Positions 39,895 to 49,583 of a DNA stretch of 62,347 nucleotides are shown here, one piece after another (position 1 is the first letter of the stretch; every line of letters begins with the position of its first letter). Location of the stretch: positions 1 to 62,347 of the forward strand of contig SGYL01000010.1 in assembly GCA_004213885.1 (NCBI GenBank). The letters are read 5' to 3'. The DNA is from Alphaproteobacteria bacterium. GTDB taxonomy: Bacteria > Pseudomonadota > Alphaproteobacteria > Puniceispirillales > Marisalimonadaceae. The position numbers and the translations under genes were made by a program. The notes under the pieces are model-generated. The model did not search any database. It saw nothing but the letters and a program-made list of their open reading frames with translations, and was not told the origin of the DNA.

Positions 39895-40278
39895 TTAATT
39901 ACAGTTTGAACAAGTGCCAGATATTTCTATAGTATGATTTTTATATGTACTTCCAAATTTTTCGCAAGTTTTATTTAACTGGTCTGTAATTTTTTGATCT
40001 TCAAGTTCAATAATATTTTCGCAATCATCACATATTAAAAAAAATGTAGAGTTTTGATTTGAGCAATTAATTTTACTGCATGCAACAAATGCATTTTTAC
40101 TTTCAATTTTATGAACCTTGCCTAATTCAATTAATTTATCCAACGCTCTATAAACTTGAGTAGGGGACTTAATTCCTAATTTTTGAGTTTCAAATAGAAT
40201 ATTATATGCTTTTAAAGGTTTATCAGATGCCTGTAGAAGTTTGTGAACCGTTTCCTGATTAAATGATAATTCTAACAT
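39895..40278 (-). CDS. zur: Fur-family zinc regulator Zur, paralogue 1
   Basis: Fur-family repressor of 127 aa: N-terminal winged helix with S-P-T-Q-V-Y-R-A-L-D-K-L near residue 38, and a C-terminal dimer domain with two CxxC pairs (C-D-D-C and C-S-N-C) forming the structural zinc site. Against E. coli Zur the regulatory zinc site keeps the hinge His (V-H-K-I-E-S) and Cys (F-V-A-C), but the later His is replaced around C-S-N-Q-N, and the conserved E-A-H-G becomes E-I-S-G. It may sense with altered affinity. Third gene of znuC-znuB-zur1, 12 bases after znuB. Confidence 0.85.
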   Translation of the reverse strand: MLELSFNQETVHKLLQASDKPLKAYNILFETQKLGIKSPTQVYRALDKLIELGKVHKIESKNAFVACSKINCSNQNSTFFLICDDCENIIELEDQKITDQLNKTCEKFGSTYKNHTIEISGTCSNCN

Positions 40279-40290
40279 TTATTTAAAATA

Positions 40291-41106
40291 TCAAATTTTA
40301 GATTTTTGTACAATAGTCATTCCTTTTTTAAAAAATAAAGACATTACAAATAACATTAATGAAGTAACTATAATACTAGGTCCTGATGGAGTATTAAATT
40401 CTAAGGAACAAAATAAACCTATTACGACAGATAATATGCCACCAATAATTGATATTAACATCATTTGAATAGGGCTTGTGCTAAAATTTCTAGACATAGC
40501 TGGTGGTATCAATAGCAAACCTGTTATTAATAAAACACCGATCATTTTGATAGATATGGCAATAATACCAGCCAAAATCACAGTGAATATATAATTTGAA
40601 ATTTCTGGATTCATTCCCTCAGCTTTTGCCAAGTCATAACTCACTGTTGCAGCAAATAAACTTTTCCAGATATAAAATAATACTAAAAGAATTAAACTTC
40701 CTCCAAACCAAATAATGATAATATCACTTATTGTTACCGAAAGAATGTCACCAAGTAATAGTCCCATTAAATCAAAACGTATTGTTGTAAGTATTGCAAT
40801 AAAAACAAGGCCAATTGCGAGCGAGGAATGAGCAAGCAAACCTAACAGAGCGTCACCAGCTAATTTAGTTTTCTTTTGTAAAACTATGAGAAGTAAGGCA
40901 ATAATTCCAGAAATTACAAAAACTGATAAGGATAAATCAATATTTAGAATAAAACCTATCGTTACTCCTAACAAACCTGAATGAGCAAGAGTATCACCAA
41001 AGTAAGCTAATCTTCTCCATATAACAAAACATCCTAGTGGACCGGCTACAATTGCTATACCAATTCCAGCAATAAGAGCTCTTGTAAAAAAATCATCAAA
41101 GATCAT
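40291..41106 (-). CDS. znuB: zinc ABC transporter permease ZnuB
   Basis: Membrane protein of 271 aa with eight to nine predicted helices, in the ABC-3 metal permease family. Signatures are G-P-L-G-C-F-V-I-W-R-R-L-A-Y-F-G-D-T near residue 22 and H-S-G-L-L-G just after, with K-M-I-G-V-L-L-I-T near 184. It imports zinc with ZnuC and ZnuA. The ATG overlaps the znuC stop by four bases. Manganese or iron members of the family look similar; the Zur context decides for zinc. Confidence 0.93.
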   Translation of the reverse strand: MIFDDFFTRALIAGIGIAIVAGPLGCFVIWRRLAYFGDTLAHSGLLGVTIGFILNIDLSLSVFVISGIIALLLIVLQKKTKLAGDALLGLLAHSSLAIGLVFIAILTTIRFDLMGLLLGDILSVTISDIIIIWFGGSLILLVLFYIWKSLFAATVSYDLAKAEGMNPEISNYIFTVILAGIIAISIKMIGVLLITGLLLIPPAMSRNFSTSPIQMMLISIIGGILSVVIGLFCSLEFNTPSGPSIIVTSLMLFVMSLFFKKGMTIVQKSKI

Positions 41107-41843
41107 TTCGAAATACTTCCATCTTCATTGTGAGTATGATTATGATCATGTCTATATAATGAGATTGCTGAAGCTGCAGTTTCACCAAACAATTCAATAT
41201 ACGCTGGATTTTTTGCTACGTCGTTTGGTGTTCCAGAGCAACAAACATGTCCATTTAGGCAAATAACGTGATCTGTTGATGACATAACAAAGTGAATATC
41301 GTGAGATATAAGTAATATGCCACATTTAAGTTTATCCGAAATTTCTTTAATCAAATTGTATAATTTTATTTCACCATTAAAATCAACACCTTGAACAGGT
41401 TCGTCTAAGATTAGTAATTCGGGTTTTTTTGCAATCGCTCTTGCGATCATAACTCTCTGAAATTCCCCACCAGATAAGTTCAAAAGATTTTTATGAATCA
41501 AGTGATCAACACCTGTTAATCCTAAACTTTCAACTATTTTTGATTTGTTGAGTTTCGAGGTAATGTTCATAAAATCTATTACCCTTAATGGTATTGCCCA
41601 ATCAATATTAATCTTCTGAGGAATATATGAAATTTTTTTGGTATTTAAAGTTACACTTCCTTCGTCAGGTTTAAGTATATCTAAAATTAATTTACCTGTA
41701 GTTGTTTTTCCAGATCCATTTGGCCCTATTAAAGTTACAATTTCTTGTTTATTAATTTCTAATGAAACACCTTTAACTAGCCATTTTTCATCTCTATAAA
41801 CACCTGCGTTATTTAATTTTACTAAAGGTTTATTTTTTTTCAT
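41103..41843 (-). CDS. znuC: zinc ABC transporter ATPase ZnuC
   Basis: ATPase of 246 aa with Walker A (G-P-N-G-S-G-K-T-T near residue 38), signature L-S-G-G-E-F-Q-R near 124, Walker B (L-L-I-L-D-E-P) and H-loop (I-S-H-D). The tail carries a short His-rich patch, H-D-H-N-H-T-H, that could bind zinc. It opens the minus-strand znuC-znuB-zur1 operon, divergent from znuA across 101 bp that holds a Zur-box-like site. Confidence 0.95.
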   Translation of the reverse strand: MKKNKPLVKLNNAGVYRDEKWLVKGVSLEINKQEIVTLIGPNGSGKTTTGKLILDILKPDEGSVTLNTKKISYIPQKINIDWAIPLRVIDFMNITSKLNKSKIVESLGLTGVDHLIHKNLLNLSGGEFQRVMIARAIAKKPELLILDEPVQGVDFNGEIKLYNLIKEISDKLKCGILLISHDIHFVMSSTDHVICLNGHVCCSGTPNDVAKNPAYIELFGETAASAISLYRHDHNHTHNEDGSISK

Positions 41844-41944: not shown

Positions 41945-42946
41945 ATGTTTAAGTCAAACAAAATTAAAATTTTTTTTAAATATTTAATTCTATCAATAAT
42001 TCCAATTAATTTTATTACTGGAGTTAATGCTGAAATTAAAGTTGTAACAACAATACAGCCACTACACTCTCTTATATCAAATGTAATGGGAAATAAAGGT
42101 AAGTTAGATCTTATTTTAGAGGGAACAGCATCCCCACATAGTTTTACTTTAAAACCTTCACATGCAAAAATGCTTGAAAATGCAGATGTGATTTTCTGGA
42201 TTGATAAAGATTTAGAAAGTTTTTTAGAAAAACCACTTAAATCAATACCAAAAAAAGCTAAGGTTGTTCATTTAATGGACATAAGTGGTTTGGAAATACA
42301 TAAATTTCGAGAAAAAAATATCTATGCTGGTCATGATGATCATGACAAGCACGATCATAAAGAAGATAAGCATGATGATCATGGCAAGCATAGTCATAAA
42401 GAAGATAAGCATGATGATCATGACAAGCATGGTCATGCTCATGGTGAGTTTGACGTGCATATATGGTTGGATCCAAATAATGCAAAAGTTATAGTTAAAG
42501 AAGTTGCTAATCAATTAGCTACTTTAGATTCAAAAAATTCAGATTTTTATAAGGAGAATTCAAAAAAAACAATAAACAAACTTGATAATCTAATAAACAA
42601 AATTAATAAATCTATAAATAAAAAAGCAAGCTTTGTAACATTTCATGACGCTTATCAATATTTTGAGAAAAGATTTGGTGTTGAGGCATTAGGAGCACTT
42701 ACTATCAATACTGATATTCAACCTGGTGCAAAGCAAATTGAAGAGATACAACACCTTGTTGAAGATAAGAATATAAAATGTATATTTTCTGAACCACAGT
42801 TTAATCCAAAACTTATTAATATGATTGCCAAAAGCTCAGGAGCTAAAACTGGTGTATTGGATCCTCATGGTTCATCTTATAAACCTGGGAATGATTTATA
42901 TTTTAATTTAATAAATGATTTATATGAAAATCTAAATAAGTGTTAG
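41945..42946 (+). CDS. znuA: zinc ABC transporter periplasmic binding protein ZnuA
   Basis: High-affinity zinc-binding protein of 333 aa with an N-terminal signal region ending near V-N-A (residue 29). Zinc ligands of the family are visible: H in A-S-P-H-S-F-T-L near residue 62, H in D-V-H-I-W-L-D-P near 171, H in F-H-D-A-Y-Q-Y near 235, and the late Asp in L-D-P-H-G-S. A very His/Asp-rich loop (about 129-167) made of repeated 13-residue units lies between the first two, as in other zinc-specific ZnuA proteins. A GAGGG ribosome site precedes ATG 41945. Confidence 0.95.
   Translation: MFKSNKIKIFFKYLILSIIPINFITGVNAEIKVVTTIQPLHSLISNVMGNKGKLDLILEGTASPHSFTLKPSHAKMLENADVIFWIDKDLESFLEKPLKSIPKKAKVVHLMDISGLEIHKFREKNIYAGHDDHDKHDHKEDKHDDHGKHSHKEDKHDDHDKHGHAHGEFDVHIWLDPNNAKVIVKEVANQLATLDSKNSDFYKENSKKTINKLDNLINKINKSINKKASFVTFHDAYQYFEKRFGVEALGALTINTDIQPGAKQIEEIQHLVEDKNIKCIFSEPQFNPKLINMIAKSSGAKTGVLDPHGSSYKPGNDLYFNLINDLYENLNKC
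42332..42436 (+). repeat. 39-bp in-frame tandem repeat coding the ZnuA His-rich loop
   Basis: Two full 39-bp units (42332-42370 and 42371-42409) and a partial third encode 13-residue blocks of the pattern H-D-D-H-x-K-H-x-H-K-E-D-K. Unit 1 and 2 differ at only a few bases, so the loop can grow or shrink by unequal exchange. The period matches whole codons, which keeps the frame. Confidence 0.9.
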
Positions 42947-43018: not shown

Positions 43019-43035
43019 TTGTTATGTTATAACAT
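43019..43035. promoter_or_regulatory. Zur-box-like site upstream of zur2
   Basis: TTGTTAT-GTT-ATAACAT fits ATGTTAT-N3-ATAACAT with one mismatch and contains the perfect 12-bp palindrome ATGTTATAACAT (43024-43035). It lies 48 bp before the zur2 ATG, so zur2 and the cobW operon behind it are probably under zinc control, with zur2 autoregulated. Confidence 0.75.
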
Positions 43036-43083: not shown

Positions 43084-43470
43084 ATGTCTTTAAAAAAAAA
43101 TAACGAAACTCACGCGAATAAAGTTTATAATTTTTTAAAAAAAAAGAAAAAACCGTTATCTGCATATGAAATACTTAAAGAATTAGCTTCTGAGGGTATT
43201 TCTGCTCCGACAACAATTTATAGAGCTCTTAATAAACTTGTATCTAATGGTCTGATTCATAAGATTGAATCATTGAACGCGTGGACTGTGTGTTATGGTA
43301 ATCATGATAATAAAGTTCCAATTTTTGAAATTTGTAAATCGTGTGGAAATGTAACTGAGCATCTAGATATAAATATTGCTAACAGTTTAAAATCATTATC
43401 TGAAAAAACAGGATTTTTAGCTGATAACCCAATTTTTGAAATACATGGTCAATGTAATAATTGTATTTAG
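43084..43470 (+). CDS. Fur-family zinc regulator Zur, paralogue 2
   Basis: Fur-family repressor of 128 aa: winged helix with A-P-T-T-I-Y-R-A-L-N-K-L near residue 45, then hinge I-H-K-I-E-S, a Cys in W-T-V-C and a nearby His in G-N-H-D that can complete the regulatory zinc site. Structural cysteine pairs are C-K-S-C and C-N-N-C. It keeps E-I-H-G where paralogue 1 has E-I-S-G, so it looks like the more canonical Zur. It precedes the cobW gene by 24 bases and follows a Zur-box-like site. Confidence 0.88.
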   Translation: MSLKKNNETHANKVYNFLKKKKKPLSAYEILKELASEGISAPTTIYRALNKLVSNGLIHKIESLNAWTVCYGNHDNKVPIFEICKSCGNVTEHLDINIANSLKSLSEKTGFLADNPIFEIHGQCNNCI

Positions 43471-43494: not shown

Positions 43495-44463
43495 ATGCAA
43501 ACTGTGGAACAAGTACCAGTAACAGTTTTAACAGGTTTTTTAGGTGCTGGTAAAACAACTCTTTTAAATCGTATACTGACTGAAAACCATGGACGTAAGT
43601 ATGCCGTTATAGTTAATGAATTTGGTGAACAAGGTATTGACAATGATTTAGTTGTTGATGCTGACGAAGAAGTTTTTGAAATGAATAACGGATGTATTTG
43701 TTGTACAGTTCGTGGTGATTTAATAAGAATACTAGGTGGCTTGATGAAACGGGCTGATCAACTAGATGCTATCATAGTTGAAACAACTGGTCTCGCAGAT
43801 CCTGCACCTGTAGCACAAACATTTTTTGTAGATCAAGATGTTGCAGATAAAACAAAATTAGATGCTATTGTCACAGTAGCAGATGCAGTTCATTTAAACT
43901 CTCAACTTGGTGAACATCATGAAGCTGAGGAGCAAATTGCGTTTGCTGATGTTGTTTTACTTAATAAAGTAGATTTAGTAGATGAAAAAGGGTTAGAAAA
44001 CGTTAAAGCAAGAATAAAAAAAATTAATCCTTACGCAAAAATTATTAAAACCACACGTTGTGCTGCACCATTAGATGAAATACTCGGATTAAATGCATTT
44101 AGTTTAAAACGTGTTTTAGAGGTAGAACCTGACTTTTTAGAATCTGATCATGACCACGATCATGATGATGACGTAACAAGTATTTCATTTGTTTCTGAAA
44201 CTCCACTAAATATGGACAAGTTTCAAACTTGGTTTGGAAATCTATTACAAACTCACGGACAAGATATTTTAAGATCAAAAGGCATTTTAAATTTTGCTGA
44301 GAAAGATGAACGTTATGTCTTTCAAGGTGTACATATGTTAATGGATGCTTCCCCAATGGGGCCATGGCCAAAAAATGCTGAAAGAAACTCTAGAGTTGTT
44401 TTTATAGGAAGAAATTTAGAAAATATGGGACTTCAAGAAGGATTTGAAGGTTGTAAATCTTAA
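43495..44463 (+). CDS. CobW/COG0523-family zinc-associated GTPase
   Basis: G3E P-loop GTPase of 322 aa. Walker A is [10 protein letters not shown] near residue 17; the COG0523 metal motif C-I-C-C (G-C-I-C-C-T-V) is near 76; N-E-F-G-E-Q-G and the base-recognition L-N-K-V-D are present. A His/Asp patch (D-H-D-H-D-H-D) near 218 may store zinc. Members under Zur control are thought to deliver zinc to client enzymes when it is scarce. The AAAGGA RBS precedes the ATG. Its stop overlaps the WD40 gene ATG by one base. Confidence 0.93.
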
Positions 44464-45500
44464 TGAATATAGATTTGCAAACTAAAAATATTGTAAAAAC
44501 AAAATTAGAACAAAGAGGTAACGAATATAAAATTAAGGCACCAGTCACTGGATCAGTTGTCCTTAACAATGCAGTTGTAGCTAGTTTTGGTGATGGATCA
44601 TTACGTTTTTTTGGATTAAATCAAGAACCGTTTGAAGTTAAAGCTCATAAAGGAGTTATACTTACAATGAGTTCGAATGGTCAATTTGTTTATACAGGTG
44701 GAGATGATGGAAAGTTTCTTAAAATATCATGCGATGGACAAATAAATGAGATTTACAATTTTGGTTCACAGTGGGTTGATTGTGTAGCATCAACTGAAAA
44801 CTACTTTGCATGTTCATCAGGTAAAAAAGCATATCTTTGGGTTAAAGACGACAGCAAACCTCTAATCATGGATAATTCAAGCACTGTTGGAGGTCTTTCT
44901 TTTGATTTAGACGGAAATAAGTTAGCTGTGTCGTCATATGGAGGTGTTACAGTTTGGCAAAGGGGTGACCGAAGATGGAAATCATCTCGATTTGTATGGA
45001 AGGGTTCTCATGGAAAAGTTACTTTTAGTCCTGATGGAAAGTATCTTGTTTCAGCCATGCAAGAGAACGAAGTACATGGATGGCGTATCAGAGATAAAAT
45101 TGATTTAGCGATGGCAGGATATCCCGCTAAAATCAAAAGCTTTACTTGGGCAGGAAACACGCCTTTTTTGGTAACTTCTGGAGCTAGTGAAGCTATATGC
45201 TGGCCTTTTGATGGAAAGGAAGGGCCACTTGGAAGAAAACCAACCTGTGTTGCGAATGGAGGTAAGCAAAATGCAACTTTTGTTGAAAACTTACCTCAAG
45301 AAAATGCTGTTTTTGCAGGTTTTCAAGATGGATCAGTAGTTTTGTCAGAAATTGATGAAACCAAAAAATCATATCTTGTTAGAAATGCAACTGGCTCTGA
45401 GGTTACCGCAATTTCTATTTCTAATGATAAATCTCATATACTTATTGGTGACGCGATGGGTAATATACTCTGGTCACCGTTATGGGCTGGAGATAATTAA
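44463..45500 (+). CDS. WD40/beta-propeller repeat protein in the zinc operon
   Basis: Protein of 345 aa made of repeated blades; recognisable units include F-G-D-G-S-L-R-F-F near residue 39, Y-T-G-G-D-D-G-K-F near 76, F-S-P-D-G-K-Y-L-V-S near 195 and F-A-G-F-Q-D-G-S-V near 281. There is no signal peptide, so it is probably cytoplasmic. It overlaps the cobW stop by one base (TAATG), and its own stop overlaps the next gene the same way, showing tight coupling. A propeller commonly serves as a scaffold; here a docking role for the CobW chaperone or its client is a reasonable guess. No catalytic motif is seen. Confidence 0.82.
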   Translation: MNIDLQTKNIVKTKLEQRGNEYKIKAPVTGSVVLNNAVVASFGDGSLRFFGLNQEPFEVKAHKGVILTMSSNGQFVYTGGDDGKFLKISCDGQINEIYNFGSQWVDCVASTENYFACSSGKKAYLWVKDDSKPLIMDNSSTVGGLSFDLDGNKLAVSSYGGVTVWQRGDRRWKSSRFVWKGSHGKVTFSPDGKYLVSAMQENEVHGWRIRDKIDLAMAGYPAKIKSFTWAGNTPFLVTSGASEAICWPFDGKEGPLGRKPTCVANGGKQNATFVENLPQENAVFAGFQDGSVVLSEIDETKKSYLVRNATGSEVTAISISNDKSHILIGDAMGNILWSPLWAGDN

Positions 45501-45763
45501 TGGTTGGGATGTTTGATAATAAAAAAACAAATCCAGAGATTATTAGAAATCTGAAAACTGTGTTTACTGAAAAATTTTCTGTTTCAAAGGATTCAACAAT
45601 TAGTGTTGCTGAACTTCGTTGTCATGAACCTAATTGTCCTCCAGTTGAGACAGTATTTACTGTAAGAACATCTGATGGTTCAATTAAAGATTGGAGAATA
45701 TCAAAGTCTGCGGGTGAAATTCAAATAAAAGATATTGAAATTCTATATGATAAAGAGAAATGA
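45500..45763 (+). CDS. 87-aa hypothetical protein in the zinc operon
   Basis: Small protein coupled by a one-base overlap to the WD40 gene and followed by DUF1826 seven bases after its stop. It carries R-C-H-E-P-N-C-P-P near residue 46, a His and two Cys that could bind metal, then V-E-T-V-F-T-V and D-W-R-I-S-K. No transmembrane segment or signal peptide. I do not recognise a named family. Position inside the Zur-controlled cobW cassette suggests a zinc-linked role. Confidence 0.75.
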   Translation: MVGMFDNKKTNPEIIRNLKTVFTEKFSVSKDSTISVAELRCHEPNCPPVETVFTVRTSDGSIKDWRISKSAGEIQIKDIEILYDKEK

Positions 45764-45770
45764 ATAAATT

Positions 45771-46406
45771 ATGAGTTTAATTTTAGCTAAAAATATAAGC
45801 GAGTTTAAAAACTTTTCTCATACTGATAGTAAATTGATAATATATGAAAGGAGAGCACCCGAAGGTTCAGCAAATTTTTTTAAAAAACTTATTAAAATTG
45901 ATTTCTCAGTCAATGCAGAAATAAGTAAATTTGATACAAAAAATAATATTAAATCAGCCTTATCAGACGTTTTCTCTTTTGATATCAAATCTTCCATTTT
46001 TTATGAAATTTGGATAAATGATATTACTCATGTGTGCGAAATTTTTTGTGATATTCAAAATACCAGTTCAATAAGTATGTGGATAGGCTCAAAAAGAGGA
46101 TGTAAACGTTTCCATATTGATAATGTACCACAAAGATTACTGGTAACTTATTCTGGAAAAGGTACAGAGTGGCTGCCTGATGCTGCTGCAGATAAATCGA
46201 CTTATTTAAATGGCGAGCCCAATGAAAAAATATTAAAATTTCCTCAAAAAAAACAATTCGTTAATGAATGGGACATAGCCATTTTTAAAGGTGGCTCACA
46301 AGGCCTTCTTCACAGAACTCTAGATTCTGCCTTAAAAAAAAATTCTATTTTACTTAGATTAGACCACGCTGACTATTGGAAAAATATTTACAATAATATT
46401 TCATAA
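45771..46406 (+). CDS. DUF1826-family protein
   Basis: Protein of 211 aa matching DUF1826 by C-K-R-F-H-I-D-N-V-P-Q-R-L-L near residue 112 and G-K-G-T-E-W-L near 131. The H-x-D, a second His about 62 residues later (L-L-H-R-T near 180) and an Arg further on (L-L-R-L-D) have the spacing of the Fe(II)/2-oxoglutarate oxygenase triad. That is my inference; the family is officially uncharacterised. DUF1826 genes recur beside Zur-regulated cobW genes. Ends the cobW-WD40-87aa-DUF1826 cassette. Confidence 0.82.
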   Translation: MSLILAKNISEFKNFSHTDSKLIIYERRAPEGSANFFKKLIKIDFSVNAEISKFDTKNNIKSALSDVFSFDIKSSIFYEIWINDITHVCEIFCDIQNTSSISMWIGSKRGCKRFHIDNVPQRLLVTYSGKGTEWLPDAAADKSTYLNGEPNEKILKFPQKKQFVNEWDIAIFKGGSQGLLHRTLDSALKKNSILLRLDHADYWKNIYNNIS

Positions 46407-46469: not shown

Positions 46470-46486
46470 ATGTTATAAAATAACAT
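46470..46486. promoter_or_regulatory. Zur-box-like site upstream of the zrgA-like gene
   Basis: ATGTTAT-AAA-ATAACAT is a perfect 7+3+7 match to the palindrome ATGTTAT-N3-ATAACAT. It is 39 bp before the ATG of the His-rich DUF2796 gene, the first gene after the DUF1826 stop. This site makes the five-gene zrg-like operon a likely part of the zinc regulon. Confidence 0.82.
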
Positions 46487-46525
46487 ACATAAAAAAAATA
46501 AATTATTTATTAAGGATATTTTAAA

Positions 46526-47104
46526 ATGCGTTATCTAATTATTATCATTTTTATATTATTTTCTTTTAATTCATTTTCCTCTGGCGATCACAAACATGAT
46601 CATGACCATAAAGAAAAAAAGGTTATGAAAAAAAAACATGACCATGATAAAAAAGGATCTTTAGATGCACATGTACATGGACTAAGTGTAATTAATGTAG
46701 TTCAAGAAAAAAACAAAGTTCTTTTTGATATTGAAATGCCTGGTTTTGACACAGTTGGATTTGAATATAAGGCCAAGTCACAAAAAGATAAAGATTTAGT
46801 CAAAAATGCTTTAAATATGTTAAAGAATCCAGCTAATTTATTTTCCATACCATCTGCAGCAAATTGCAAAATGTCAAATAACACATCAACAATTTTAGAA
46901 GAAAAAAATCATACTGAGTTTAGAGCAAAATATGAATACAATTGTTCAAATATAACTAAGTTTTCTTTTATAACTTTCAATATTTTTGATAGTTTTAAAA
47001 ATAGCAAAGATTTAGAACTCAATATTATTGGAAAAAAATCTACTACAAAACATAAAATAAATAAATTTACAAAAAAACTAAGTTTGTATAACTTTTCTAA
47101 TTAA
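46526..47104 (+). CDS. zrgA: ZrgA-like His-rich DUF2796 periplasmic protein
   Basis: Protein of 192 aa with a signal peptide (about residues 1-18) and a His-rich stretch (H-K-H-D-H-D-H near 22 and H-D-H-D near 39) that suits zinc binding. DUF2796 hallmarks follow: L-D-A-H-V-H-G near residue 47, E-M-P-G-F-D-T-V-G-F-E near 72, and a late C-x-n-C pair. It matches ZrgA of the Vibrio zinc system, where the zrg operon supplements ZnuABC. Coupled to the ABC ATPase gene by a one-base overlap. Confidence 0.85.
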   Translation: MRYLIIIIFILFSFNSFSSGDHKHDHDHKEKKVMKKKHDHDKKGSLDAHVHGLSVINVVQEKNKVLFDIEMPGFDTVGFEYKAKSQKDKDLVKNALNMLKNPANLFSIPSAANCKMSNNTSTILEEKNHTEFRAKYEYNCSNITKFSFITFNIFDSFKNSKDLELNIIGKKSTTKHKINKFTKKLSLYNFSN

Positions 47105-47781
47105 TGAATTCAAAGAATCTTATAGAGATTAAAAATTTAGAATTTTATTGGAATAATCAAGATGAATTTAAGATTCAAATAAATGATTTTTCAATTCAAA
47201 CTAATGAAAAAAAACTTATATTAGGTAAAAGTGGCATTGGTAAATCAACTTTTCTCAATCTAATTTGCGGTATGATTTCTCCAAGAGCAGGAGATATTTA
47301 CATTTTATCTCAAAATTTAAGTTCTCTTAAAGCTTGGGAATTGGATAAATTTAGATCTGAGAATATTGGAGTTATATTCCAAGAATTTAATTTACTTGAT
47401 CATTTGTCACCTTTAAATAATATTTTATTACCATGTTATTTTACAAATAAAGATTTAAATAAATCTAAAGAAAGAGCGTTTTTATTCGGAAAAAAACTAA
47501 ATTTAAACAAAGACTTATTAATAAAATCTAATTCTAAAGATTTATCTACAGGACAAAAACAAAGAATTTCCATAATAAGATCTATCATCAATAAACCAAA
47601 AATTATTCTAGCAGATGAACCAACTTCATCTTTAGATTTTGATAATAAAAATTCTTTTTTAAAGTTACTTTTTGATATTTGTAATGCAGAAAAAATTTCA
47701 TTACTGATGGTATCTCATGATTTAAATCTTAAGAATAAATTTAAAGATGTAATAGCATTCGAAAGTTTTTATAAATCATGA
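47104..47781 (+). CDS. ABC transporter ATPase, LolD/MacB-like, Zrg system
   Basis: ATPase of 225 aa: Walker A (L-G-K-S-G-I-G-K-S-T near residue 40), Q-loop (V-I-F-Q-E-F), signature L-S-T-G-Q-K-Q-R near 144, Walker B (I-I-L-A-D-E-P-T-S-S-L-D) and H-loop (V-S-H-D). The A-D-E-P-T-S/G-x-L-D pattern marks the LolD/MacB/FtsE branch that works with FtsX-type permeases. Overlaps the permease gene by four bases (ATGA). Probably energises transfer of metal from the His-rich protein; direction of transport unproven. Confidence 0.88.
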   Translation: MNSKNLIEIKNLEFYWNNQDEFKIQINDFSIQTNEKKLILGKSGIGKSTFLNLICGMISPRAGDIYILSQNLSSLKAWELDKFRSENIGVIFQEFNLLDHLSPLNNILLPCYFTNKDLNKSKERAFLFGKKLNLNKDLLIKSNSKDLSTGQKQRISIIRSIINKPKIILADEPTSSLDFDNKNSFLKLLFDICNAEKISLLMVSHDLNLKNKFKDVIAFESFYKS

Positions 47782-49019
47782 AAGTTTTATTATCTTTAGC
47801 TTTTTATTCTCTTTTTAGCAGAAAAGTCTCTGTTTTTTTAACTATTTTATGTGTTTCTCTTTCTATAATTCTTTTTTCATCAATTGATAATTTTAGAAAA
47901 AGTGCAAAAAAAACATTCTTTTCTAATGCAAAATCAGGTGATTTAATAATCTCTTCAAGGTCTGGAGAGATAGAAGCTCTATTATATTTAATTTTCCAAA
48001 TTGGAACACCAACTAATAATATTAGATGGAAATCTTTTAAAGATATTCAAAATCATCCTGATGTAAAATGGGCAATTCCAATTTCACTAGGCGATAGCCA
48101 TAAACAGTATAGAGTGCATGGAACCTCATCTGATTATTTTAAAAAAATAAAAATAAAAAATAAAAAGTTAGAATTTTATAAAGGTGAACATTTCAAAGAT
48201 ATTTTTGACGTTGTTATCGGTTATGATGTAGCTAAGACGCTAAATTATAAATTAAATGATAAAATCATAGTCGCTCATGGAATATCATCTCAAGATTTTC
48301 ATGATGAGTTTCCATTTAGAATAAATGGTATATTAAAAAAATCAGGATCGAATACTGATAAGTTAATTTTTGTTAGTTTAGAAGCATTAGAAGCAATTCA
48401 TAAAGATTGGCAAGGTGGATTTAAATTACCAAATGTCAAATCTAATCCAACATCATTTAATGAAAGTGATTTAGTTCCAAAGGAAATTACAGGTGCTATA
48501 ATAAAATTAAATTCAAAGATAAAAATATTTCAATTTAAACGAGATTTGCATAAATATAAAAGTGAACCTATTCAAGCTATTATACCTGGCTTAGCATTAA
48601 CAAAATTATGGCAAATAGTGTCGTTTGTAGAGCAGATACTTTTTTTAATATGTTATTTTGTTATTTTTATAACCTTACTTGGGATGGCCGCTTCAATTTA
48701 TACAAATGTAAACCAAAGAAATAAAGAAATTGCATTGTTGAGAGTTGTAGGGGCTTCTCCAAGATCAATTTTTTTAATTTTGATATTAGAGGGAATTATG
48801 ATTTCTCTGACAAGTATATTAATATCTATATTATTAATGCTCCTTTTAAATATCATTTTAAATCCTATATTAGATACAGAGTATGGTATTTATTTAGAAT
48901 ATAATTTCTTATCTGCCTATAATGTAATTTTTTACTGTTCAGTGATATTGATATCAATACTAGTCGGGTTAATTCCAGCTTTTAGAGGATATAAAAAATC
49001 GCTGAATTCTGGAATTTGA
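47778..49019 (+). CDS. FtsX/MacB-type ABC permease, Zrg system
   Basis: Permease of 413 aa with the four-helix FtsX layout: one N-terminal helix (about residues 13-33), a large periplasmic domain (about 35-270) and three C-terminal helices (about 275-300, 330-355, 375-405). Between helices the motif N-Q-R-N-K-E-I-A-L-L-R-V-V-G-A-S near 312 is the ATPase coupling loop of this family. LolE-like proteins share it, but the partner genes point to zinc handling. Stop TGA is followed after 21 bases by DUF3299. Confidence 0.88.
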   Translation: MKVLLSLAFYSLFSRKVSVFLTILCVSLSIILFSSIDNFRKSAKKTFFSNAKSGDLIISSRSGEIEALLYLIFQIGTPTNNIRWKSFKDIQNHPDVKWAIPISLGDSHKQYRVHGTSSDYFKKIKIKNKKLEFYKGEHFKDIFDVVIGYDVAKTLNYKLNDKIIVAHGISSQDFHDEFPFRINGILKKSGSNTDKLIFVSLEALEAIHKDWQGGFKLPNVKSNPTSFNESDLVPKEITGAIIKLNSKIKIFQFKRDLHKYKSEPIQAIIPGLALTKLWQIVSFVEQILFLICYFVIFITLLGMAASIYTNVNQRNKEIALLRVVGASPRSIFLILILEGIMISLTSILISILLMLLLNIILNPILDTEYGIYLEYNFLSAYNVIFYCSVILISILVGLIPAFRGYKKSLNSGI

Positions 49020-49040
49020 TATATTGAAAAGTTAAAGGAT

Positions 49041-49583
49041 ATGATTAAAAGATTATTTTGTTTTTTCTTAATATTTTTTTTTCTTATAAGTAACTCTTTT
49101 GCTAAGGAAAATTTTATCTTAAATTGGGATAAGTTAATTCCTTTAAATGCTTACGACTTCGTTCCGAAAACAGGGATAACATTTGAAATGTGGGATGATA
49201 AAAATTTTGTAAAAAAATTAAATGAAGCAGGACTTAAATCTAATAAAAAAATTATAGGTAAAAATATCAAGCTATATGGTTTTATGGTTCCTTTAGAAAT
49301 GGATTATCATGAAGATTTAATAGTTAATGAATTCATTTTAGTTCCAAGTGCTGGAATGTGTATACACGTTCCTCCACCACCACCAAATCAAATGGTGTTG
49401 ATTAAGTTAGATAAACCACAAAAAGCCAGATATATGTACCAGCCTATCTCTGTGGAAGGAATTTTAAAAAATACTCCACCTATTAAAGATTCATTTGATA
49501 GTATTTATGAAATTAATACTAACAATATCATTAACATTGATAATGATGAATTCATTAAGCATTTTGAAGAAAGTCAAAAATGA
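49041..49583 (+). CDS. DUF3299-family periplasmic protein
   Basis: Protein of 180 aa with a signal peptide of about 21 residues. The core has G-F-M-V-P-L-E near residue 79, then F-I-L-V-P-S-A-G-M-C-I-H-V-P-P-P-P-P-N-Q near 99, the DUF3299 hallmark with a Cys-x-His pair that may bind metal. DUF3299 genes accompany zrgA-type operons. It overlaps the peptidase gene by four bases. Confidence 0.82.
   Translation: MIKRLFCFFLIFFFLISNSFAKENFILNWDKLIPLNAYDFVPKTGITFEMWDDKNFVKKLNEAGLKSNKKIIGKNIKLYGFMVPLEMDYHEDLIVNEFILVPSAGMCIHVPPPPPNQMVLIKLDKPQKARYMYQPISVEGILKNTPPIKDSFDSIYEINTNNIINIDNDEFIKHFEESQK

Follow-up and report, generated by a model that had tools for sequence, protein, structure and literature searches.

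Do four tightly packed genes beside a zinc importer form an undescribed system that allots zinc to particular proteins, and if so, which of them belong to it? The question is raised by contig SGYL01000010.1 (assembly GCA_004213885.1) of an alphaproteobacterium of the Puniceispirillales, of which we analysed a stretch of 62,347 nucleotides, hereafter the window. At positions 43495-46406, a cobW gene, which encodes a GTPase of the COG0523 family, is followed by genes for a WD40 beta-propeller, for a protein of 87 residues that we call P87, and for a DUF1826 protein. A first-pass annotation had read them as a possible undescribed four-gene system for zinc allocation. The tightly coupled zinc-allocation module stands, but "four-gene" and "undescribed" do so only in part: the recurrent unit is cobW-WD40-P87, and its novelty lies in P87.

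Recurrence of cobW-WD40-P87 across genomes

The neighbours of P87 are constant in the loci anchored on this gene, for which the best 80 were taken from 171 relatives that had been confirmed in named genomes. The search pattern for these loci itself requires AEL-x-C-[HR]-E, and they include many near-identical single-cell genomes. The WD40 gene lies directly 5' of P87 in all 80 and is preceded by cobW in 77, the remaining three being contig ends. Of the 64 loci with more than 2.5 kb of upstream sequence, 60 have zur, znuA or znuB no further than 5.5 kb upstream. By record title, the carriers are from SAR116, Pelagibacteraceae (SAR11), uncultured Alphaproteobacteria, Rhodobacteraceae and their relatives, and Geminicoccaceae, plus one contig labelled Anaerolineae (L021). 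The latter has an alphaproteobacterial cassette close to those of L024 and L073 and is probably a binning error.

Two samples of genomes allow the association to be quantified. Among 190 genomes of the class (thresholds of E up to 0.001 for P87 and up to 1e-25 for the WD40 family, with flanks of about 1.5 kb at most loci), P87 is carried by 5, the WD40 family by 28 and DUF1826 by 23. All five P87 genomes also have the WD40 family, against 0.74 expected (P=5e-5), as do four of four when the window's genome is left out (P=3e-4). The fetched stretch contains cobW at 25 of the 29 WD40 loci (24/28 plus the window). Among 398 genomes of the phylum sample, P87 occurs in 16 genomes and at 19 loci, 17 of which have it beside cobW or WD40. 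The arrangements are cobW-WD40-P87, cobW-P87, and WD40-P87 with no cobW in 12 kb. The third is seen in five genomes, chosen by hand for a comparison of their GTPases, and in every one a cobW of the window's type is present elsewhere (61-62% identity). P87 is present in 14 of 41 near relatives, many of them incomplete; of these 14, 13 have cobW-WD40-P87 and 7 have DUF1826. In the family of genome G163 it is found in 2 of 16 genomes.

P87 is also found on plasmids (15 records), and none was found in phages. A COG0523 gene adjoins P87 in 8 of the 14 plasmid records viewed, in several of them directly after aztABC, and is absent beside it in the other 6, which include a rhizobial CGLPGC subgroup (L089, L094) and one cyanobacterium. 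In L089 and L227 a subgroup of P87 genes that stand alone lies between genes for an alcohol dehydrogenase and an amidohydrolase. Copies without cobW or WD40 in 12 kb also occur in L182 and L187.

The first-pass annotation had proposed that co-occurrence of the four families would tell whether they form a system. This holds for cobW-WD40-P87, which recurs across alphaproteobacterial lineages, but not for DUF1826, which does not track P87.

Coding evidence supports the layout. The four open reading frames (ORFs) abut or overlap as had been claimed, with the coordinates of Table 1 exact: TAATG junctions join cobW to WD40 and WD40 to P87 by 1-nt overlaps, and a gap of 7 nt separates P87 from DUF1826. 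The identities assigned to the GTPase, the beta-propeller and the DUF1826 protein agree with their Pfam matches, and CHEPNC corresponds to residues 41-46 of P87. Ratios of nonsynonymous to synonymous substitution rates (dN/dS) against the relatives L008, L009 and L010 are 0.04-0.05 for cobW, 0.10-0.15 for WD40, 0.20-0.27 for P87 and 0.19-0.22 for DUF1826. All four ORFs are thus under purifying selection and behave as genes. The closest named record, L007, carries the label SAR116 cluster. Some genes elsewhere are split into two ORFs by decay or assembly error: a cobW gene in L017 and L018, and DUF1826 in L016.

P87 genes lie beside several clades of COG0523 GTPases

We built a COG0523 tree of 70 hand-chosen bacterial rows, sequences below 250 aa having been dropped beforehand; YjiA, YeiR and a few other rows have very long branches, and some adjacency labels are loose, since a distance of up to 1.3 kb was enough for a gene to count as a neighbour. 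The window's cobW falls in a 38-row clade (support 91/56) with all 29 rows that were picked for lying immediately upstream of WD40. Ten rows were picked for their DUF1826 neighbours, and 9 of them are in a 16-row clade (100/100); it includes GTPases identified by NCBIfam as ZigA (L097 with 641 bits and L172 with 617, for a cut-off of 600) and the second GTPase of L087, just under that cut-off. The window's cobW is not ZigA (NF038288, 196.9 bits). Rhizobial GTPases form a 6-row clade (100/99). Genes directly before P87 are found in all three clades. Each accessory therefore has its own association with COG0523: WD40 with the window's type, DUF1826 mainly with ZigA, and P87 with several. All three are joined at the window's locus.

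The P87 family

Six residues are invariant across 24 diverse P87 members: K19, C41, C46, P47, E50 and T51. The C-x4-C pair is thus present in 24/24, while in a wider set, its rows chosen by hand for a second tree, P47 varies and L124 lacks E50. The predicted fold, from a structure model, is alpha-beta-beta-beta-alpha. There is no significant match to Pfam or NCBIfam, in which any one family hits at most 2 of the 24 members (best E 0.012), and sequence comparison with solved structures gave no match in one search and nothing convincing in another (best E 0.23). Two rhizobial copies are annotated "nitrate reductase", an annotation for which we found no support. No description of P87 was found in the open-licence literature searched, including the available portions of PMC3223725 and PMC10642216, and the family seems not to have been described before. 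A zinc site of four ligands (C-H-E-C) in CHEPNC was considered and rejected as a general feature of the family, given that H42 and E43 vary; the two cysteines remain as the likely ligands.

We tentatively propose, as a reading with a real though less than even chance of being right, that P87 represents a family, so far undescribed, of small proteins that act as partners of COG0523 GTPases handling zinc. The WD40-linked, ZigA and rhizobial clades would each have recruited it to load, hold or pass zinc, and COG0523 chaperones would accordingly act as complexes and not singly. A number of observations weigh against the zinc-allocation model given further below, in which P87 docks on the GTPase and holds or passes zinc. 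First, P87 sometimes stands alone, in 6 of 14 plasmid records and at 2 of 19 loci of the phylum sample. Second, many more genomes of the class sample have the WD40 family than have P87 (28 against 5 of 190), and P87 is therefore not essential to the cobW-WD40 pair. Third, the 80 loci are pattern-selected, the best of 171, and form only 22 P87 clusters at 88% identity; the set is thus biased, its pattern demanding part of the motif, and redundant. Fourth, H42 and E43 of CHEPNC vary among members, and one weak copy (L187) lacks both cysteines. Fifth, the structure model of P87 has no significant fold match.

The chief rival to a zinc relay is that P87 regulates the GTPase, as a nucleotide-exchange or GTPase-activating subunit whose cysteines are a structural or redox pair. 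That P87 keeps to the GTPase and not to a single client, adjoining three COG0523 clades with and without WD40, speaks for such a subunit, and the two invariant cysteines and the Glu-Thr pair suit a docking face no less than a metal site. Yet no GTPase regulator was recognised among the fold matches of P87, all weak, and WD40-P87 pairs lack a cobW within 12 kb in five genomes, even though each has a cobW of the window's type elsewhere. We regard this alternative as rather unlikely.

Less likely still, and in our view improbable, is that P87 (or the WD40 protein) is itself the client, a zinc protein loaded by the GTPase when zinc is low. Tight and often overlapping gene coupling would fit this, and the P87 genes that stand by themselves, where no zinc gene is annotated nearby, suggest that P87 has a function of its own. 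However, COG0523 proteins usually serve housekeeping enzymes, whereas P87 is patchy, being absent from 23 of the 28 genomes with the WD40 family. Finally, P87 might bind ribosomes or RNA, as proteins of the HPF/dsRBD kind do, and work with a COG0523 GTPase in the manner of the mycobacterial MRF-MPY pair, with which an NCBIfam name agrees. We consider this very improbable; the net charge of P87 (-3 to +5 in the 24 members) is near zero, and P87 thus lacks the basic, RNA-binding character of HPF/YfiA factors.

DUF1826 is an accessory

A cassette of four genes acting as one unit is rejected by the distribution of DUF1826, which is found beside P87 in 9 of the 80 loci; of these 80, only one has less than 700 bp after P87. 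In the class sample two genomes share P87 and DUF1826, against 0.6 expected (P=0.11), and without the window's genome this becomes one of four (P=0.39). WD40 and DUF1826 are shared by 7 genomes (P=0.03), or 6 without the window's (P=0.07). DUF1826 is an accessory, a lineage-specific extra.

Its conserved residues hint at what this extra may do. D84, C111, H115, D117, R122, G129, T132 and H181 are invariant in both aligned sets of DUF1826, of 19 and 7 members; Y127 and R182 are so in the larger set only, from which fragments among the 25 loci were left out (one fragment, L119, lacks the H). The C-x3-H-x-D...H set looks like a metal site, and HxD...H is the motif of 2-oxoglutarate/Fe(II) oxygenases. 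DUF1826 might thus be such an oxygenase, or a cupin, acting on some substrate when zinc is low and linked to the zinc chaperone by nothing more than shared regulation, a possibility that we find doubtful. In its favour, HxD...H is present in 19 of 19 members, C111 is invariant as well, and a COG0523 gene lies within the fetched 1.5 kb or so on each side at 13 of 25 DUF1826 loci, the window excluded. Against it, the profile search for DUF1826 gave no relative in Pfam or the PDB, and the structure model of the half with the motif is unusable (predicted local distance difference test, pLDDT, of about 30). Sequence comparison with solved structures also gave nothing convincing, with best E-values of 1.8 and 0.44.

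Zur boxes and organisation of the locus

The window contains exactly two perfect matches to the Zur pattern TGTTATNNNATAACA, which was modelled on the Caulobacter box sequences in the available portion of PMC4176598, against 0.06 expected from first-order Markov simulation. Only the perfect sites stand out, the counts that tolerate mismatches being 3 sites against 1.05 expected with at most one mismatch and 17 against 14.6 with at most two. Of the 77 related loci with a cobW start, 60 have a box that departs from the same 15-mer in no more than one letter and lies in the 2.7 kb upstream of cobW; the window's composition predicts about 0.05 such sites per locus by chance. Of the 17 loci without one, 11 have less than 700 bp of sequence before cobW. 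The position of this site varies among loci: before znuA, before zur, or directly before cobW.

The cassette had been placed under a Zur box. There is indeed a perfect one at 43020-43034, but it fronts zur, and cobW is not directly behind it. The likely unit is therefore zur-cobW-WD40-P87-DUF1826, which the box and the gene order suggest is probably a Zur-repressed operon; 24 bp separate the end of zur from the start of cobW. The best NCBIfam match of this zur is Zur, with 76.7 bits (below the cut-off of 167).

Table 1. Genes and Zur boxes of the zinc locus (positions in the window).
Feature	Position	Strand	Evidence
cobW (COG0523 GTPase)	43495..44463	+	Pfam cobW 204.1 bits, CobW_C 88.2 bits
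WD40 beta-propeller protein, 345 aa	44463..45500	+	Pfam WD40 44.8 bits
P87, 87 aa, C-x4-C (CHEPNC) and ET motif, unnamed family	45500..45763	+	Pfam: none
DUF1826 protein, accessory member	45771..46406	+	Pfam PF08856 79.4 bits (cut-off 22)
zur (Fur family), probably heads the operon	43084..43470	+	FUR 34.7 bits
Perfect Zur box TGTTATGTTATAACA, 15-bp palindrome, between znuA and zur	43020..43034	+	Pattern scan
znuA, zinc-binding protein, upstream of the operon	41945..42946	+	ZnuA 231.2 bits
znuC-znuB, divergent from znuA	40291..41843	-	Named by position and translation
Second perfect Zur box TGTTATAAAATAACA, before zrgA	46471..46485	+	Pattern scan
zrgA, zinc-uptake protein, follows the second Zur box	46526..47104	+	PF10986 109.7 bits

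The surroundings hold further zinc-related genes. Two Zur-like genes of the Fur family lie in this one locus, one at 39895-40278 (minus strand) with znuCB and the other, at 43084-43470 (plus strand), heading the cobW operon. A second unit (46471-49583) follows the other perfect box and comprises zrgA, an ATP-binding cassette (ABC) ATPase, a permease and DUF3299. This set recurs in L007, L009 and L010, and its ABC, permease and DUF3299 genes are also on a contig of Pelagibacteraceae (L029). In 10 of 25 hand-chosen loci the cassette has a neighbour that encodes a cysteine-rich protein of about 135-139 aa, on the opposite strand upstream in L012, L014, L015, L019, L022, L023, L029 and L052, and after P87 in L067 and L074; this neighbour may be what is annotated as DUF1636 in Gemmobacter.

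A proposed model for zinc allocation

A role in zinc handling fits the gene context, and on balance we lean towards a Zur-derepressed module for zinc allocation in which CobW is the zinc carrier, the WD40 protein a scaffold and P87 a small accessory that docks on the GTPase. When zinc falls, Zur would leave the box at 43020, and Zur, CobW, WD40, P87 and DUF1826 would be made, together with the ZnuABC importer and ZrgA. By analogy with the COG0523 family, CobW, whose translation carries a Walker A motif (GFLGAGKT), the CxCC metal motif (GCICC) and an HDHDHDD loop, would take cytosolic zinc at GCICC and, as GTP is hydrolysed, deliver it to a protein that has priority. The propeller would most likely join the GTPase and its client. 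P87 most likely docks on the GTPase, because it adjoins three different COG0523 clades, and its C-x4-C pair may hold or pass zinc. DUF1826 would be a lineage-specific addition with a possible metal site.

P87, found with three GTPase clades, and the WD40 propeller, found with one, offer concrete partners for the question of how COG0523 proteins choose their clients. Carriers include SAR11 and SAR116, abundant bacteria of the ocean, where zinc can be scarce.

Comparison with known systems

The human protein of COG0523 subfamily 5, later named ZNG1/CBWD, serves methionine aminopeptidase. M24 peptidases (methionine aminopeptidase/creatinase) were considered as a linked client in view of the creatinase neighbours of subfamily 5 genes mentioned below, and rejected as a general link: they are present in 16 of 16 chosen genomes and near the cassette (about 1.2 kb) in one, G163, which has 19 M24 genes. 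In this genome (contig 53, L188), an M24 peptidase lies about 1.1 kb from P87, matching the creatinase neighbours described in the available portion of Haas 2009 (PMC2770081). According to the same portion, prokaryotic subfamily 5 genes cluster with WD40, znuABC and creatinase genes and in several cases have Zur sites in front of them; most eukaryotic homologues, the human one included, fall in this subfamily. The window's cobW shares the neighbourhood of WD40, znuABC and Zur box, a likeness set by gene context, our tree being bacterial only. It differs in that neither P87 nor DUF1826 is mentioned for subfamily 5 in that portion of the paper, where DUF1826 is named in the legend of Figure 4 among Zur-regulated COG0523 clusters. 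Hence the system is not undescribed as a whole: the pairing of cobW and WD40 with znuABC, as well as DUF1826 at Zur-regulated COG0523 genes, was known already, and the new part is P87.

Zur-regulated COG0523 genes of the ZigA type resemble the locus in having DUF1826 neighbours (9/10 chosen rows in their clade) and differ from it in their GTPase, the score of the window's cobW being below the ZigA cut-off. In Francisella, a DUF1826 gene is among five F. novicida genes in an RNA-Seq table on zur, in the accessible part of PMC5786701. The periplasmic zinc chaperone AztD is likewise a beta-propeller encoded in zinc import loci, but inspection by eye shows no evident signal peptide in the window's WD40 protein, whose NCBIfam hits include no AztD model.

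A further parallel in arrangement is Paracoccus denitrificans, where, in the portion of PMC5387054 available, pden1338-1340 rise 8.3-13.2-fold at low zinc and a Zur motif precedes pden1338. There too, a COG0523 gene comes first, with two small hypothetical genes behind it, which we liken to WD40 and P87 by arrangement and not by sequence. An order like that of pden1338-1344 is seen on a Phyllobacterium plasmid (L229), where an ABC transporter (substrate-binding protein, two permeases and ATPase) comes after cobW-P87, as pden1341-1344 do in Paracoccus.

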